A stretch of DNA of 64,000 nucleotides from Bacteriovoracaceae bacterium. GTDB taxonomy: Bacteria > Bdellovibrionota > Bacteriovoracia > Bacteriovoracales > Bacteriovoracaceae. The position numbers and the translations under genes are program-made. Each line of letters starts with the position of its first letter. The first letter of the stretch is position 1. Shown here in pieces: positions 1,878 through 49,931 of the stretch. The stretch is from the NCBI GenBank assembly GCA_021737405.1, contig JAIPEG010000001.1, positions 1 through 64,000 of the forward strand, in the 5' to 3' direction. Under the pieces are notes generated by a model, which made no database searches, was not told the DNA's origin, and worked only from the letters and a program-made list of their open reading frames with translations.

Positions 1878-4775
1878 TTGACCATGTATTTTGACCCTAG
1901 TAGCATTAAGGCACCTATTAGACGGCAAAATGAGCATTTCAAGGACAAAATGGAAGGTCAAAAAGACAGCGGTGACCAAGGTCCGAAAACCAAGAAACGT
2001 ACAAAGTTTTTAAAATCTTGGCGAGAAGCCGGTCAGCTCTCTATTTTCTTGGGCATGGTTCTTCTGGTCGTTACTACATTTATCGCTTTTGTTGTGAACG
2101 TCGGCCTCTTTGTTAAGGCCAAAATTAATTTGCAAAACTCTGTTGATGCAGCAGCCTTTGCAGGAGCCGCTGTACAGGCACGCCAACTCACCAATATTGG
2201 CTATCTCAATTGGGAAATTAGAAACACATATAAAGAGTGGCTCTTTAAGTATTACATACTTGGTAATATTGGCCTTGATGCTATTGATAATATCGATGGA
2301 AATGCACCAGGAAGCAACCCATCTTGCAATGGCAACATTGCACTTAATAATCAAGGCATGAACTTTCGATTGCGCCAATTTACAGGTAACAACTGTCGCT
2401 ATTATCAAAGTGGTATCTATGACCACTACAATGTTCCTTCAGTCTGCATTCACTTTGGTTCAAATAATAATATTTGTGAAATTGTCACTCTCCCTGGTCT
2501 TCCTCGTTTTAATACCGTTGGTCTTCCAAGTATTTCTGAACAACACGAAGCCTTTTTAAATTCTATTGTTCAAACAAAAGCAGATGACTGTGCCGATCGC
2601 TCTAATATAAATATGGGTGCGGCGATGCTTTGGACCTATGGGACCGGAAACGCCAATCTTTTTCCAGGTGTACCAGAAATTGCCCCTTCTAGAATTGGTG
2701 CTTGGGTTCAGTCCCTTGAACTTGCCTTAAGAATGAGAAACCTTGAGGCCATCGTTAATACTCCCGCAATCAATAGACCGATTTGCAGAAACCCTGGAAA
2801 TACTAATGGTGTTGATTGCGTCTCCATTGAAGACATCATGAATGACGGCAGCTCACTACCTTTTAATGAGAGGCCTACTAAAGCTTTTTGGAGTGCTTTT
2901 AGGAATCTTAGTGGAGGGGCCTTTAAAGAAAATAATGAATCCAATGATTTTTCTTCAAGCTTTCGCTTAACAGAACTTGATCCGAAACCTTTTCCGGCAA
3001 ATGAGTCTTCTTTAAGTGGCTTCCTCATCCCTTCAACCGAACCAGAAGCCCTTCAAAAAAGATACCTCGATTTAAAAATCATGCCGATTAACTATGCTAT
3101 GTTTTATACGTCCTTTTTCCCGGCGACTGGAAGTTTTGTCTCTAGCACTCCAGGACCTGATGTCCCTGATGCAGAAGCTGCTTGTGGTGGTACGAAGACC
3201 GCCATTCCAGTACCAGGTTATATTTTAGGTTTTGTTAAAAACCCCGAGGTCGTAACTTACTACGCTGTAGAAGGTGCCGCTGAATTCACTGGACTCTTTT
3301 ATCCCTTTTTTGAAAACCAAGGGATTACTCTTAAAACTTATGCTGCAGCAAAGCCTTTTGGTGGCCGCATCGGTCCCCTGCTCTTTGATGCTGGCTTTAC
3401 TGGAAATGATGCTTCACTCAAAACTCTCTCAGGAACAAAACGAAGCTCATCAAACTATATCAGTGCTTTTAATACGGCTTCCATTCCTGATATTTCTACA
3501 GACGATGGCGCGAGACAGATTCTTGAAGGTGGATATCCGATTCCGACCATTCCTGACTTTTGGATCACAAGTGCAGGTAGCGCGGATGTTGGAGGAAATC
3601 CAACGGTGAGTGGCGGTGCTACTGGATTTGGGATTCCCAATCTAATTTATGATTTTGAGAATTACAGTGAAATTAGTAACCTTGGGGAAGGTATCCTTCC
3701 CATCAATGATTTAGTGAACTCTCCAAATGATGCCGACGCTTACAGGAACTTTATAAGAGAAAAAGATTTTGGGCTCTACGACATTGAGCAGTTTCGAAAG
3801 TTTAGAGACAATAAAGTAGGCACTGGTGGTGCCGCTATTTTTTCTATCCAAGAAATCACTCAAAGTCTTCATAGAGTAAGACGGGCCACTCGTTACGAAT
3901 CCCTTAATTACATGATCCCCTTAATGGATGTGGATGGAAATAATCCGACGACCATGGATGGAAATTCATACGTTCAGCAAATCCCTGGAGCTCCTCCTCC
4001 GGCGGGAGACACGAATACCCAAGTATATCGCCTTTTTGCCCCTCTATACGGAAGTGAAACTCTCTATAATAGCCCAGCGGCCATTACAGACGTTATCAAT
4101 CGGTATATTACCGAAAATTCCACGGCGATTCAGACCTATACAACAGCACTTGAACAAATTGCCAATCGAATGCGCGCCCTATCTGCGAGCTCCTCAAGAG
4201 GTGGGAACGCCTACCTTACGGCCGCTGATACTATTCATAAATTACCCCTCATAGGACCATCAGGTCCTACTGATCCAGAGTGTGACACACTCTCCATGGC
4301 CCAAAAATTTAATATGTTCTTTTCAGTGACACAAAGAGGATGTGGAATTACCCCATTGGCCGTGAACACGACCACCTACTTTAACACCGGCCAATCTATT
4401 AGGGGACCCGACTTTCAGTACTATTATCGCTCCACCTGGCAAACCCCTACCTTTGGTGATCTTACCGAGGGACTCTCAGGATATATGCCTGGACAGCGCC
4501 AAGGGGCTAATAATGATGGATCTTTGACTTCCGTATTCGGGGCAAGTGCTGGAGTTGTCGGCATCGCCAAGAGAAACTTTTATTCCACTAAATTCATTCC
4601 CATGAATAAGGTTGTCGACACCGGCACCCCTTATGGTTTTGATGGATTACCAATATTTATCGATCCCGTTAATGCCACGGGTTACTCTACATCGACAACA
4701 ATGCAGGGTATAAGGATGAGAAACACCCTCGATGGTGGGCGACTCCAAGAATATGGCAATCCGCCGCCATTTTAG
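1878..4775 (+). CDS. Large TadE/TadG-like surface or pilus protein
   Basis: Product of 965 residues. Residues about 49-100 carry the Tad-like module: a GQLSIF start, a 20-residue membrane helix, then 'KINLQNSVDAAAFAGAA', the A-rich helix that marks TadG-type minor pilins and Flp assembly proteins. The remaining 850 residues are extracellular-looking, Gly/Asn/Pro/Tyr-rich, with many cysteines and no recognisable enzyme motif. The N-terminal 50 residues are basic and probably cytoplasmic. No other tad genes (tadA, rcpA, tadZ, flp) are in the window, so it may act alone. The reading opens at TTG 1878, ATG 1884 follows two codons later, and an ATG near 1950 has an AAGGA-type site; the start is unresolved. 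Confidence 0.7.
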   Translation: MTMYFDPSSIKAPIRRQNEHFKDKMEGQKDSGDQGPKTKKRTKFLKSWREAGQLSIFLGMVLLVVTTFIAFVVNVGLFVKAKINLQNSVDAAAFAGAAVQARQLTNIGYLNWEIRNTYKEWLFKYYILGNIGLDAIDNIDGNAPGSNPSCNGNIALNNQGMNFRLRQFTGNNCRYYQSGIYDHYNVPSVCIHFGSNNNICEIVTLPGLPRFNTVGLPSISEQHEAFLNSIVQTKADDCADRSNINMGAAMLWTYGTGNANLFPGVPEIAPSRIGAWVQSLELALRMRNLEAIVNTPAINRPICRNPGNTNGVDCVSIEDIMNDGSSLPFNERPTKAFWSAFRNLSGGAFKENNESNDFSSSFRLTELDPKPFPANESSLSGFLIPSTEPEALQKRYLDLKIMPINYAMFYTSFFPATGSFVSSTPGPDVPDAEAACGGTKTAIPVPGYILGFVKNPEVVTYYAVEGAAEFTGLFYPFFENQGITLKTYAAAKPFGGRIGPLLFDAGFTGNDASLKTLSGTKRSSSNYISAFNTASIPDISTDDGARQILEGGYPIPTIPDFWITSAGSADVGGNPTVSGGATGFGIPNLIYDFENYSEISNLGEGILPINDLVNSPNDADAYRNFIREKDFGLYDIEQFRKFRDNKVGTGGAAIFSIQEITQSLHRVRRATRYESLNYMIPLMDVDGNNPTTMDGNSYVQQIPGAPPPAGDTNTQVYRLFAPLYGSETLYNSPAAITDVINRYITENSTAIQTYTTALEQIANRMRALSASSSRGGNAYLTAADTIHKLPLIGPSGPTDPECDTLSMAQKFNMFFSVTQRGCGITPLAVNTTTYFNTGQSIRGPDFQYYYRSTWQTPTFGDLTEGLSGYMPGQRQGANNDGSLTSVFGASAGVVGIAKRNFYSTKFIPMNKVVDTGTPYGFDGLPIFIDPVNATGYSTSTTMQGIRMRNTLDGGRLQEYGNPPPF

Positions 4776-4859
4776 GCTAAAAAAACTTGATTCGCCTGTT
4801 TCCTCTTGGCTATACTGCCAACTATAAACTTTATTTCCTTAATAACAGAGGTGTTCATT

Positions 4860-5774
4860 GTGGCAAAAGCGACTAAAAAGAAAGCAACAAAGAAGCAGGC
4901 TGCTAAAAAGGTAGCAAAAAAGAAAGTAGTTAAAAAAGTAGCAAAGAAGAAAGTGGCTAAAAAAGTCGCTAAAAAGAAAGTTGCTAAGAAAGCTACTAAG
5001 AAGAAAGTTGCTAAGAAAGCTACTAAGAAGAAAGTTGCTAAAAAAGCCACTAAAAAGAAAGCAGTGAAAAAAGCGACAAAGAAAGTCGCAAAGAAGGCTG
5101 CAAAGAAAAAAGTCGCCAAAAAGAAAGTAGCGAAGAAGGCCCCAAAGAAAGCGGCTAAAAAAGTAGCTAAAAAGGCCACAAAGAAAGCGGCTAAAAAAGT
5201 AGCTAAAAAGGCCACGAAGAAAGCGGCTAAAAAAGTTGCTAAAAAGGCCACGAAGAAAGCGGCTAAAAAAGTAGCTAAAAAGGCCACAAAGAAAGCAGCA
5301 AAAAAAGTTGCAAAGAAGGCCGCAAAGAAAAAGGTCGCCAAAAAGAAAGTCGCAAAGAAGGCCGTTAAAGCAAAACTGACAAAAGCAGATATTGAAGAAC
5401 AAAAAAGACTCAAAAGAGAAGAAGCCATTCGTAAATACAAAGAAAGGAATAAGCCCCTTATTGATGAAGAGCTTTTAAAAGAAGCTGAAGAAGAAATGGA
5501 AGAGGTTGAAGTTGTGGCCATAGAAAGTGATGGACCAGAGCAAGCAATGGGCCTAAACCCAGCTGGAGAAGGAACTGATCGCGCGAAGTCAGATCCTCCA
5601 ACAACGCCAAAACTTAGTGAAGAAGTTGATCCTGATGAGGAAGACACTCAGGCCGGTGAATATGGGTTTGGTTGGGGCTACAACGATGCCTTTGATAAAC
5701 CAGATGAAGAAGAAGAGCCTGAAATCCTTGATGAGGATGAACTCTATGCCAGAGGCCTAGACAAAGACAAATAG
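4860..5774 (+). CDS. Histone H1-like lysine/alanine repeat protein with acidic C-terminal domain
   Basis: Product of 304 residues from a GTG start at 4860 with AGAGGTG upstream; this start gives the natural MAKATKKK-type N-terminus. Residues 1-170 are nearly all Lys, Ala, Val and Thr in KKAAKKVAKKAT-like repeats, the composition of bacterial H1-like nucleoid proteins (HctB, AlgP types), which bind DNA non-specifically through lysines. Residues about 180-304 switch to a Lys/Glu-rich helix and then a strongly acidic tail with PDEEDTQ and DEEEEPEIL patches and a GFGWGYND segment. The joined basic and acidic halves could self-neutralise or recruit a partner. The nucleoid role is inferred from composition only. 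A strong terminator follows. Confidence 0.75.
   Translation: MAKATKKKATKKQAAKKVAKKKVVKKVAKKKVAKKVAKKKVAKKATKKKVAKKATKKKVAKKATKKKAVKKATKKVAKKAAKKKVAKKKVAKKAPKKAAKKVAKKATKKAAKKVAKKATKKAAKKVAKKATKKAAKKVAKKATKKAAKKVAKKAAKKKVAKKKVAKKAVKAKLTKADIEEQKRLKREEAIRKYKERNKPLIDEELLKEAEEEMEEVEVVAIESDGPEQAMGLNPAGEGTDRAKSDPPTTPKLSEEVDPDEEDTQAGEYGFGWGYNDAFDKPDEEEEPEILDEDELYARGLDKDK
5151..5330 (+). repeat. 36-bp tandem repeat (five units) inside the H1-like gene
   Basis: Five consecutive 36-bp units start at 5151, 5187, 5223, 5259 and 5295, each coding a 12-residue KKAAKKVAKKAT-type unit. The first four differ by only one to three bases; the fifth has drifted more. Copy number is likely to vary between strains by slippage. 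Confidence 0.85.
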
Positions 5775-44555: not shown

Positions 44556-46259
44556 TCACTTTTTCTCAAAGTATTTAAAGTAGTGAGGGTTGCGATAAGA
44601 ATGAAATAACTGGGTCTTCGTTTCAATTGCATAGACTTCGTCATTGATTTCAACGACCTTAAACTGGCGGCCCTGATCATCATAGAAATGATAGCGGTAC
44701 TTATAGTTACCCTGACGGTATTCACCTAAGAGCTTCAATCTCTCAACCTTTGGCAACAATACCCCCGCCCTTTCGCTAATAGGATTATAATCAGACCAAA
44801 TATCGTCCATGCTTATCCTTCCAAGCATACTGGCGCGAGAGAAGTAGCGAAGACCTTTAAAGGGACCAAGTGGCTCTTTTAATCGTTCAAGGGCGATTTC
44901 TAAATTTTTCTCCCTTAACTTCCTTCCGGCGCCACTCATATCTGGGCACCCTACTCTAATAGCACCGTGGATAAAGTAATAAGTAAAAGAAAACTCACCT
45001 TCTTTAAAGAGGACGTTTAACCATGGATAGTCTTTCAGTGGTCCCTTCTTACCTTCATCAATAAGATAAGGATAAAGAAAGTCATTTTCTGGGATAAAAT
45101 TATATTTAGGATTGTTAAGTCGATTTAAAACGACTTGGGAAACATCTTGCCTCTCAAGTGCATAGGGAGCATCGATACTTCCAACCTCATTAAAGAGAAT
45201 GGTCGTTATGACGTATAAGGCACGATAAACCTCTTCTTTCTTAGACCAAAAATCATAAACTTCTTTATGCTTTTTAAAGACAAATTCTTTTAAATCGGCC
45301 CGCGCCTTTGCCTGGGTCTCAATGATCTGATCCCCTGTCTCATAGTGGCCACCGACCTTAACTCTATTTTTTTTCAAGGATTCATAATATTCAAGCATAC
45401 GCTCGACTCTATCAAACCATTCCTGAAAACGTTTTGCTTGCTTCTTAGGACCTCGCTTTAATTGCTTCTCTATTCCATAAAAAGCGGAAAAGAGATCATA
45501 GCGAATTTCTTCTGGAATAAATTCAGGGTTTTCCTTCATTTTAAGAGAGAGCGTATCAAGCATGGCCCGTAAGAAAGTATCACTGTGAGAACGATTTGGA
45601 TTTTGTGCGCCATCTTGAACAATTTTACGGTAGAAGTAGACTTCATTGGCCCTAGCTTTGACTTCCTTTTCCTCGCCACCCTTTACTTCATCGTAATTCT
45701 CTCTTAATTCAAAATGATCAACTGGGTAACGATAACTAGTGAGAAAGGGAGTCTTCTTCAAGAAATTTAAAAAGCTCCTCTTAAAACTAATAAATAGATA
45801 CTTTGACTTGTTTTTAATAGAAACTTTAGCTGACTCATCAGTGGCCTCTACATACTGTTCCTTATATTTGATTAGTTGTTCAACACTTTCCTCTAAAAGC
45901 TCGAGTTCTTTTAAAAGCTCGTTAAAATCACTCGTTTTTTCTAGTTGTTCTCGCTGCGATCGAATCCATTCTTTCTTTTTGATAAGCTCTGGAACAAAAC
46001 GATTAAGGGTTTTTCTGTCGAGTTTCCCATCAGTCGCTCTTGGCAAGTAATGACCATCGCCTCGAAAGCTTCGAAACTTTGTCCAAAATTCTTCCTCAGT
46101 TCCAGGACGACAATTTTCTTTTGTGAATTCCTTATGATGTTTCCAATAGTTTTTACGAACCTGATTTTCATTTAGCTTTATAAATTTTGCCAACTTCCCT
46201 AAGTCCGTGGCAGCAACTTGAAAATTAAATAGTAGAAAAACAATGAGGAAGTTATGCAT
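44556..46259 (-). CDS. Exported protein with a SleB-like cell-wall hydrolase segment
   Basis: Product of 567 residues, signal peptide 1-18 (ends QVAAT). Residues 30-330 are Lys/Glu-rich helical. Around 340-385 'RALYVITTILFNEVGSIDAPYALERQDVSQVVLNRLNNPKY' resembles the SleB/CwlJ (Hydrolase_2) pattern, in which an NE(A/V)xG-type glutamate and a later 'VxxVVLNRxxxP' follow; the Glu in FNEVG could be catalytic. The 3' half also has 'HGAIRVGCPDMSG'. It directly follows mpl (TAATG overlap), a murein-peptide gene, which supports a wall-related role. Homology is faint and needs a profile search. Confidence 0.45.
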   Translation of the reverse strand: MHNFLIVFLLFNFQVAATDLGKLAKFIKLNENQVRKNYWKHHKEFTKENCRPGTEEEFWTKFRSFRGDGHYLPRATDGKLDRKTLNRFVPELIKKKEWIRSQREQLEKTSDFNELLKELELLEESVEQLIKYKEQYVEATDESAKVSIKNKSKYLFISFKRSFLNFLKKTPFLTSYRYPVDHFELRENYDEVKGGEEKEVKARANEVYFYRKIVQDGAQNPNRSHSDTFLRAMLDTLSLKMKENPEFIPEEIRYDLFSAFYGIEKQLKRGPKKQAKRFQEWFDRVERMLEYYESLKKNRVKVGGHYETGDQIIETQAKARADLKEFVFKKHKEVYDFWSKKEEVYRALYVITTILFNEVGSIDAPYALERQDVSQVVLNRLNNPKYNFIPENDFLYPYLIDEGKKGPLKDYPWLNVLFKEGEFSFTYYFIHGAIRVGCPDMSGAGRKLREKNLEIALERLKEPLGPFKGLRYFSRASMLGRISMDDIWSDYNPISERAGVLLPKVERLKLLGEYRQGNYKYRYHFYDDQGRQFKVVEINDEVYAIETKTQLFHSYRNPHYFKYFEKK

Positions 46260-47789: not shown

Positions 47790-49931
47790 TTATTCTAAGC
47801 TGATTTTTTTCAAAGGATTGTTTGGAAGCTTTTTTTCATCACGAACATCACCCTCAAAGACTAGGATTTCACTCGGTTTCTTAGGGTTTCTCACATAGGA
47901 GAGATAAGCGTCACCTTCTGCATCAATGAGTTGAACAACCATTACTGAATCAGGATCGGACGCCCCAATTCCCATGACTTCAACCTGGCGTGGATATTTA
48001 TAAGAAAATTCTGGTCTAAGCTGCTTGAGTCTTGATAACTCAACATCTTTGTTGGACTGCTTCACCCCCACTAAAACTCTAGATTTTAAGAGATGCTGAT
48101 AATCCCAATGACTACCATAGGGAGCGACAACCATCGCCCCCATTGAAAAGGCCCTACCAACTTCCCATTTTTCTGAAAGTGAAAATCCATAGCTCACTGG
48201 ATATAACTCGCCAGACTCAGAATGGTCCTTTGCCATAGGAACAATTCCACCGTTTACAACATCATTATTATAATTAGACCAATCAACCACAAGCTCATCA
48301 AATAATTTTTCAGAGTCATTAGTAAAGCGCATCGTGCGATTTGATACAAACTGATAGTGAAGAGAGCTAAACATTGAGACAATTTCTCCCTCCTCAACTT
48401 CTTCAGTGCGAGAGAGTCCTCTCCATAAAGTTTGATCTTTATACCAGCGGGCCATTTTATATTTCCATTTATCTGGATCTAGGTAACTACGATTAGCAAA
48501 AGTTTCAATAAAGTCCTGATCAACAAGTTCAAGGCCTATGATCTCATCTCCAAATTTAGCGTGCTTGTAATGCATATTAGATTCTTGGGCAAATTCAACA
48601 TATTTTTTAACCAAGTCATCTAAGACATCATTTGGTCGCGATTTAAACTCCTCCATTAAATCATCATCATTCAGAAGTTTTGTGTTTACGAACTCAGCAA
48701 ATTGCCCAGTTTTAACATCAACTTGCGCATAGTTTTTTATAGTTTTACTAGGTTTTTGACTCCGGAATGTTCGACCATACTTTCTTGGTATTTTTGGATA
48801 GAGAAGTTCTGGAGCGGCTCCAAGACGTAATCCTTGTAAAATCCGTTTTGTTAATTGAGTGTAAAGTGCATTAGAGCTGTGCACCCCTTGAATGATCTGG
48901 TTGGTCCACTCATCAAGCCCCGTATAGATATCATTATTGACATCGGCCATTCTAGGAGGAGGAAGACCTTCTAACCAAAAAGGGTAATAAAGAGAGAATT
49001 GTCTGATCGTGCGACCGTTGCCATCATAGAAAGGATGAATTGAAATGAGGCTTCTTTGAAACTCTGCAACCAATTTGGCAAATTTTCTAAAACTTTTGAC
49101 AGATTTTATGTCTCCAATCTGATCTCTTTGCTTAACGAACCAATCAAGAAGATCCTCCGTCAATTGGTTCACAAGCCTTCCCGTGAGGTCTTCAAAATTT
49201 CCTCCCTGATCGGCCTGGAATTTCACTAGGTCGCCATGGAGGTTTCGATTACTCCTTTTGATCATTTCTAAAACTTCAGGCGTCGTTGTAAAGGCATTAG
49301 GATAGCCAATCTGACCCGTGTATCCCTTAGGGCCTTTAAGAAGATCTGAAGTTACGATATATGGATTACCAACGAGGGACTGAAATTGTTTTTCATTAAT
49401 TTCATAACCACTTGGTACATTGCCAATAATATTATCTTTCCTAAAGACGCCAATTCTCTCCAAAGGAATTCCATCGATGGCCCCACTCATCATTCTCTTA
49501 TGAACTTCTTTAAGTGTACTGCTATTTATTTCTGGGGAGTTTTCAAAGAGGTACTTCGTGGCGTTCATATAGTTTTTGAAAACTTTTTTTCCGCCAGAGC
49601 CGGAATAGAGATCAAAAATAGATTCAGAAAAAAGGCGACTGTCACCTAGATGAATATCACTTAGAACATTGAAGGCATGAGCATAATCGATAAAGAGAAG
49701 AGCGTCTAAATTCTTTCCTATAATTTTAGCTTTATCACCTGAGTAATTTTCATTTAAAGTGTCTGTAAATCGCTTCTTTGTTAAGAAGAATTTTACTTCT
49801 AGAATTTCTGTAATGAGGTCCTTGCAGGTGGCATCTTCAGAGGCCAAGGATCTTTTTCCTTTAAGACCTGCAACACTGCAACTTTGAAATAAGAGGGCCG
49901 CGACTACTAAATGAATGAGCGTATTTCTCAT
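47790..49931 (-). CDS. Exported Fic-domain lipoprotein with possible C-terminal ADP-ribosyltransferase fold
   Basis: Product of 713 residues. An N-terminal signal with 'LLFQSC' puts a lipobox-like Cys at 18, so it is probably a lipoprotein. The Fic core is at about 140-330: 'HKRMMSG' and the complete catalytic motif HPFYDGNGR (299-307), which in Fic proteins transfers AMP or other nucleotide moieties to target hydroxyls. No classical (S/T)xxxE(G/N) inhibitory helix is seen. From about 500 onward 'TLWRGLSR' (R504), 'GFSLSEKW' (S584-S586) and 'RQVEV' (Q649-x-E651) recall the R-S-[Q/E]xE order of ADP-ribosyltransferases. That part is an inference. Exported Fic proteins are rare; a predator effector on prey is plausible. 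Confidence 0.75.
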   Translation of the reverse strand: MRNTLIHLVVAALLFQSCSVAGLKGKRSLASEDATCKDLITEILEVKFFLTKKRFTDTLNENYSGDKAKIIGKNLDALLFIDYAHAFNVLSDIHLGDSRLFSESIFDLYSGSGGKKVFKNYMNATKYLFENSPEINSSTLKEVHKRMMSGAIDGIPLERIGVFRKDNIIGNVPSGYEINEKQFQSLVGNPYIVTSDLLKGPKGYTGQIGYPNAFTTTPEVLEMIKRSNRNLHGDLVKFQADQGGNFEDLTGRLVNQLTEDLLDWFVKQRDQIGDIKSVKSFRKFAKLVAEFQRSLISIHPFYDGNGRTIRQFSLYYPFWLEGLPPPRMADVNNDIYTGLDEWTNQIIQGVHSSNALYTQLTKRILQGLRLGAAPELLYPKIPRKYGRTFRSQKPSKTIKNYAQVDVKTGQFAEFVNTKLLNDDDLMEEFKSRPNDVLDDLVKKYVEFAQESNMHYKHAKFGDEIIGLELVDQDFIETFANRSYLDPDKWKYKMARWYKDQTLWRGLSRTEEVEEGEIVSMFSSLHYQFVSNRTMRFTNDSEKLFDELVVDWSNYNNDVVNGGIVPMAKDHSESGELYPVSYGFSLSEKWEVGRAFSMGAMVVAPYGSHWDYQHLLKSRVLVGVKQSNKDVELSRLKQLRPEFSYKYPRQVEVMGIGASDPDSVMVVQLIDAEGDAYLSYVRNPKKPSEILVFEGDVRDEKKLPNNPLKKISLE

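Follow-up and report, generated by a model that had tools for sequence, protein, structure and literature searches.

AnkX, a Fic phosphocholine transferase effector, is one of the closest described systems. It is an ankyrin-repeat protein that is delivered by injection into eukaryotic cells, and to our knowledge it has no ADP-ribosyltransferase (ART) domain. The AnkX-type phosphocholine transferases have the motif HPFxDANGR, with Ala in place of the first Gly. In addition, the guanine-modifying ARTs Scabin and pierisin are among the closest known systems, and so are TreX and TreTu of Xenorhabdus, which are the C-terminal tips of Rhs toxins, have immunity partners according to their entry titles, and contain no Fic domain in their chains. 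SidE-type effectors, as they are generally described, likewise link two nucleotide chemistries in one protein, namely a mono-ART and a second domain that is a phosphodiesterase and not a Fic domain. Meanwhile, explanations of prey control by predatory bacteria centre mostly on wall enzymes and hydrolases.

Here, we describe a protein with a Fic half and a predicted ART half (Fic-ART), encoded in a stretch of 64,000 nucleotides (the window) of a Bacteriovoracaceae genome that is an 84% complete draft. Its Fic motif reads HPFYDGNGR, compared with HPFRDANGR in AnkX, and there was no ankyrin model among its Pfam matches at E up to 10. Unlike FICD/HYPE and other AMPylating Fic enzymes, the window protein has a fused ART and does not contain the inhibitory helix [ST]xxxE[GN] of the self-inhibited Fic classes. 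Neither a Fic-ART fusion nor a Bdellovibrio Fic effector was described in the open-licence literature searched.

The gene and its N-terminal signal

The Fic-ART gene is an open reading frame (ORF) of 713 codons, encoding 713 aa, at 47790..49931 on the minus strand. An earlier note on this DNA had given the ORF, strand, and length correctly, together with all of the residues it named (C18, HPFYDGNGR at 299-307, R504, SLS at 584-586, and QVE at 649-651). The gene order is class II tRNA synthetase, PPDK, beta-lactamase-fold protein, Fic-ART, Mur ligase, a 567-aa protein, and SAM synthetase. The beta-lactamase-fold gene is 82 bases away and the Mur ligase gene is 64 bases away, and thus neither gap beside the window copy could hold a small immunity gene. 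Furthermore, this gene order recurs at three other loci (L033, L040, and L053). Thus, the short form of the gene is an old chromosomal gene in this branch and not a mobile cassette. A mobile-element origin was also dropped because no relatives were found among viral contigs (scanned with two short peptide patterns), plasmids, or phages at the limits used. The promoter and terminator scan was uninformative, with 7 promoter-like sites against 6.5 expected and 1 terminator-like site against 2.5 expected. The conserved 567-aa neighbour (44556-46259, minus strand) had no Pfam match at E 0.001.

Residues 1-17 (49881..49931, minus strand) form a predicted signal peptide. An earlier signal-peptide rule was unselective (122 of 270 ORFs were called), and the hydropathy peak was used in its place. 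With a limit of 2.0, a hydrophobic N-terminal peak was found in 46 of 48 family ORFs (the 5'-complete subset of 56 non-redundant ones) and in 44 of 140 neighbouring ORFs, a rough comparison, since family members were read from the first codon of the open frame and neighbours from the first start codon. In the two family ORFs under the limit (L096 and L086), signals are visible by eye. Thus, the exported protein with an N-terminal signal that had been proposed for the window copy turns out to be a trait of the family.

Cys18 (49878..49880, minus strand) stands directly after the hydrophobic stretch and is a candidate lipidation site. The canonical lipobox consensus is L-A/S-G/A-C. The signal of the window copy ends in the non-canonical FQSC and those of relatives in FQAC (L004), LSSC (L005), and IIAC (L006), and a loose lipobox pattern was present in 11 of the 48 family ORFs, including the window copy. 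Judging from these residues, lipid attachment at Cys18 is plausible with an atypical lipobox.

The Fic and ADP-ribosyltransferase halves

The predicted Fic fold covers residues about 117-366 (48834..49583, minus strand). Pfam Fic (PF02661) matched the window protein with 36.4 bits against a cut-off of 24, and the catalytic pattern HPFx[D/E]GNGRxxR was present (HPFYDGNGRTIR), with HPFYDGNGR at residues 299-307 (49011..49037, minus strand) followed by R310. The model had a pLDDT of 91.0, and in the structural search ranks 1-49 of the best 50 listed were Fic proteins and the Fic-like AvrB. Among the matches listed, the Fic half was nearest in structure to AnkX, with the alignment reaching model residue 422, which corresponds to residue 440 of the protein. 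When the full-length model was searched against a viral fold library, there was no match at E <= 0.001, and two of the first four matches were named Fic. In the relatives, [ST]xxxE[GN] occurred in 12 of the 30 rows listed, with mostly differing offsets; L050 and L092 share one, and L057 is the same protein as L031. The only Pfam match after the Fic domain, CTD12 (E 0.051), was dropped because it was under its own cut-off.

A stretch of a strand pair and helices in the predicted models (residues 380-497; 48441..48794, minus strand) lies between the two folds, and the predicted ART fold follows at residues about 498-693 (47853..48440, minus strand). The earlier note had suggested an ART domain at the C-terminus from three short motifs. 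The ordered pattern R / SxS / [QE]xE with loose spacing, though, occurred in 783 of 5000 shuffles of residues 480-713, which is near chance. Thus, the motifs alone were rejected as proof of an ART, and the claim needed other evidence; conservation and fold raise it above chance. Both structure prediction and structural search, which the note had named as checks, gave an ART fold for this part. Its best structural matches were TreX and TreTu, with an identity of 13-14%. In the C-terminal model, R105, S185, and E252 are within strands E98-109, E183-187, and E252-256, and Q250 is just before the last strand. In addition, R504 falls on residue 7 of the cholera/LT A chains, as counted from the starts of the aligned ranges and assuming that the first residues are ungapped. 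We consider it almost certain from the predicted models that the two folds are real, and within the limits of prediction we regard both the architecture and the folds as settled.

The third proposed check, an HMM search against ART families, had a different outcome, and no model was over its cut-off in Pfam or NCBIfam. A PHROGs search found only weak matches to other families, a Scabin-like model matched 1 of 17 members (E 0.019), and PDB sequences had no match to the 17-row ART profile at E up to 10. Since no known ART family model was over cut-off, the C-terminal part is, by sequence, a separate family of the ART fold, one not represented in the libraries searched.

The residues expected of an R-S-QxE enzyme are highly conserved. 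We aligned 38 ORFs, representing 37 proteins because L003 carries a truncated copy of the L002 protein. The ART arginine R504 in the first strand (48420..48422), G505, H570 (48222..48224), and S584 were each present in 38/38, S586 in 37/38 (one T), and Q649 and E651 in all 37 ORFs with a residue there (all positions on the minus strand). The SLS motif containing S584 and S586 lies at 48174..48182 and the QVE of the catalytic loop at 47979..47987, both on the minus strand. The STS form is the textbook form of this ART motif; the window copy has SLS and nearly all relatives have STS. In a smaller alignment of 20 rows, R504 and S584 were found in 20/20 and Q-x-E in 19/20, with the distant L022 as the exception. 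Thus, conserved R, S, and E positions in homologues, on which the earlier proposal depended, were indeed among the invariant ones. Meanwhile, H[P/G]x..GNGR was intact in 34 of the 36 rows of the 38-ORF set that reach the Fic motif. Between the window copy and its nearest relative (L004), dN was 0.121 in the Fic part and 0.097 in the ART part, with dS near saturation.

Some relatives have departed from this pattern. The Fic motif was lost and the ART kept in L014, L017, L095, and L101, and both motifs were lost in L098 and L100. These rows were gathered by the ART profile or the whole protein, and therefore the bias to a kept ART comes partly from selection of the rows. To judge from these motifs, some family members may do without one or both of the activities. 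In addition, the distant L099 and L102 have ExE in place of QxE in the catalytic loop, which suggests different targets.

Distribution of short and long forms

When 98 related genomes were searched with the whole protein, 27 had matches, and some of these covered just the Fic part. The ART profile matched 37 of 129 genomes of the family and 53 of 368 genomes of the phylum (41 of the 234 of good quality), with some matches weak or fragmentary (e.g., G031, G041, and G089). Fic-ART was also found in 8 genomes of one genus (g84) of another family, and the pairing of Fic and ART recurs in several families of the phylum. It was absent from 315 of the 368 phylum genomes and, within its own genus, from 5 of 7 genomes (G001 and G003-G006). 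Because of its absence from most of the phylum and of its own genus, Fic-ART is not a general requirement for predation. The profile search covered the phylum, and a scan of genome contigs used two short peptide patterns; its 97 pattern matches came down to 28 loci, all of which were placed in Bdellovibrionota by title, tree labels, or identity with family genomes. One locus, L036, was considered as a case outside the phylum and was rejected, as its genome and G160 of the window's family have identical placements and scores. Another locus (L050) is from B. bacteriovorus strain kdesi. The G170 member has a 775-codon frame with a signal, HPVLNGNGR, and the ART motifs. Fic-ART is probably present in the laboratory type strain of B. 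bacteriovorus as well.

Family members come in two sizes, a short form (about 650-820 aa) and a long form (about 1460-2235 aa); the 1431-codon frame of L047 is truncated. In the tree with 10 long forms, there were 2 label changes, compared with 8.7 in shuffles. Members were collected by their ART part, and other C-terminal tips on a shared N-terminus lie outside this sample. The window's own genome also encodes a long paralogue with a 2234-codon frame (contig C46, L105:3252-9953), and the only two Pfam Fic matches in this genome are both Fic-ART proteins. In G174, two Fic-ART genes lie head to tail with slightly overlapping open frames (L091:741-3209 and 3188-5521).

The N-terminal parts of long forms (L060:3563-5900 and L051:1409-5500) had no Pfam family over cut-off and contain Cys-bearing and hydrophobic stretches. 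By their sequence, these N-terminal parts are possibly a delivery part. Delivery domains over cut-off were found neither in five members nor in two long N-termini (a T4SS model had E 0.097, under cut-off). Furthermore, among the loci compared for neighbouring genes, tblastn placed a small gene for an exported product of about 175 aa, which we call c1, immediately upstream of the long form in 14 of 15 5'-complete cases, with L037 as the exception. L111 also has c1 upstream, as does the genome of the window (L105:2690-3262), where it overlaps the frame of the long paralogue. Two c1 members scanned had no Pfam match, and c1 was beside none of the 9 short-form loci tested. Its position is such that c1 could be an immunity or helper protein.

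Proposed function and alternatives

Fic-ART is found in a phylum that holds known predators. The reading we prefer, to which we give about an even chance, is that of an exported two-enzyme protein most likely acting in the prey cell. The signal peptide would take the protein through the inner membrane, and Cys18 would probably anchor it in the outer membrane. The Fic half would transfer a nucleotide-linked group, most usually AMP from ATP, to a hydroxyl of its target, and the R-S-QxE ART half would transfer ADP-ribose from NAD+. The targets could be prey proteins or, for a QxE ART, nucleic acids. Outside the cytoplasm, neither ATP nor NAD+ would be expected. Since both donors are cytoplasmic, the likeliest site of action would be a prey cell whose cytoplasm has been opened by the predator. 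We infer the prey role from export, from a dependence on cytoplasmic donors, and from the predatory way of life in the phylum; activity, lipid anchoring, and targets are likewise deduced. The activity of Fic-ART is likely, and we think it probable that both halves are active; given activity, a role directed at prey is modestly favoured. The absence from most of the phylum fits an accessory tool.

An active double enzyme might instead modify proteins of the predator's envelope or surface, e.g., in growth-phase regulation, and not work in prey. The short form has a conserved, housekeeping-like chromosomal order at four loci (the window, L033, L040, and L053), and the window copy is probably membrane-anchored, both of which agree with such a role. 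However, the general expectation about ATP and NAD+ speaks against it, as does the patchy presence in 53/368 genomes, and we regard it as unlikely. Loss of catalysis in one or both halves, leaving a binding or scaffold protein, would account for the degenerate Fic motifs of L014, L017, L095, and L101 and for the two relatives with both motifs gone (L098 and L100). For the window copy this is very improbable, because every motif residue is kept and dN is low in both halves.

A polymorphic-type toxin against competing or kin bacteria, with an immunity partner, would explain why the best structural matches of the ART part are Rhs toxins, and c1 upstream of 14 of the 15 long forms could then be the immunity or helper protein. 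In addition, PMC3482391 lists Tox-Doc and Tox-ART-RSE, both of them as polymorphic toxin domains. However, c1 was found at 0 of 9 short-form loci, neither flank of the window copy leaves space for a small gene, and neither the five members nor the two long N-termini had a delivery domain over cut-off. Thus, we consider this reading distinctly unlikely.

An extended form of the preferred prey reading, which we find rather unlikely, is an outer-membrane or secreted double-writer effector of predatory Bdellovibrionota, present also in the model predator B. bacteriovorus. Its AnkX-like Fic half and R-S-QxE ART half would each add a different nucleotide-derived mark to prey molecules; both marks might go onto one target, and a donor other than ATP might be used. 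Should this be true, Fic-ART would represent a type of prey-modifying enzyme without description in the open-licence literature searched. Fic-ART enables a direct genetic test of whether predators covalently modify prey molecules too. Furthermore, it adds a sequence family to the ART fold and a Fic subfamily that is, among the matches listed, structurally nearest AnkX, in bacteria without known animal infection.

Signal-like N-termini were also observed in Fic-only proteins of about 380-460 codons (L018, L021, L025, L026, L027, and L029). Among seven Fic-only N-termini inspected (these six and L020), a signal was called by the earlier, unselective rule in 3 and seen by eye in 3 more. Exported Fic proteins without an ART seem common in the phylum, as far as their N-termini indicate.
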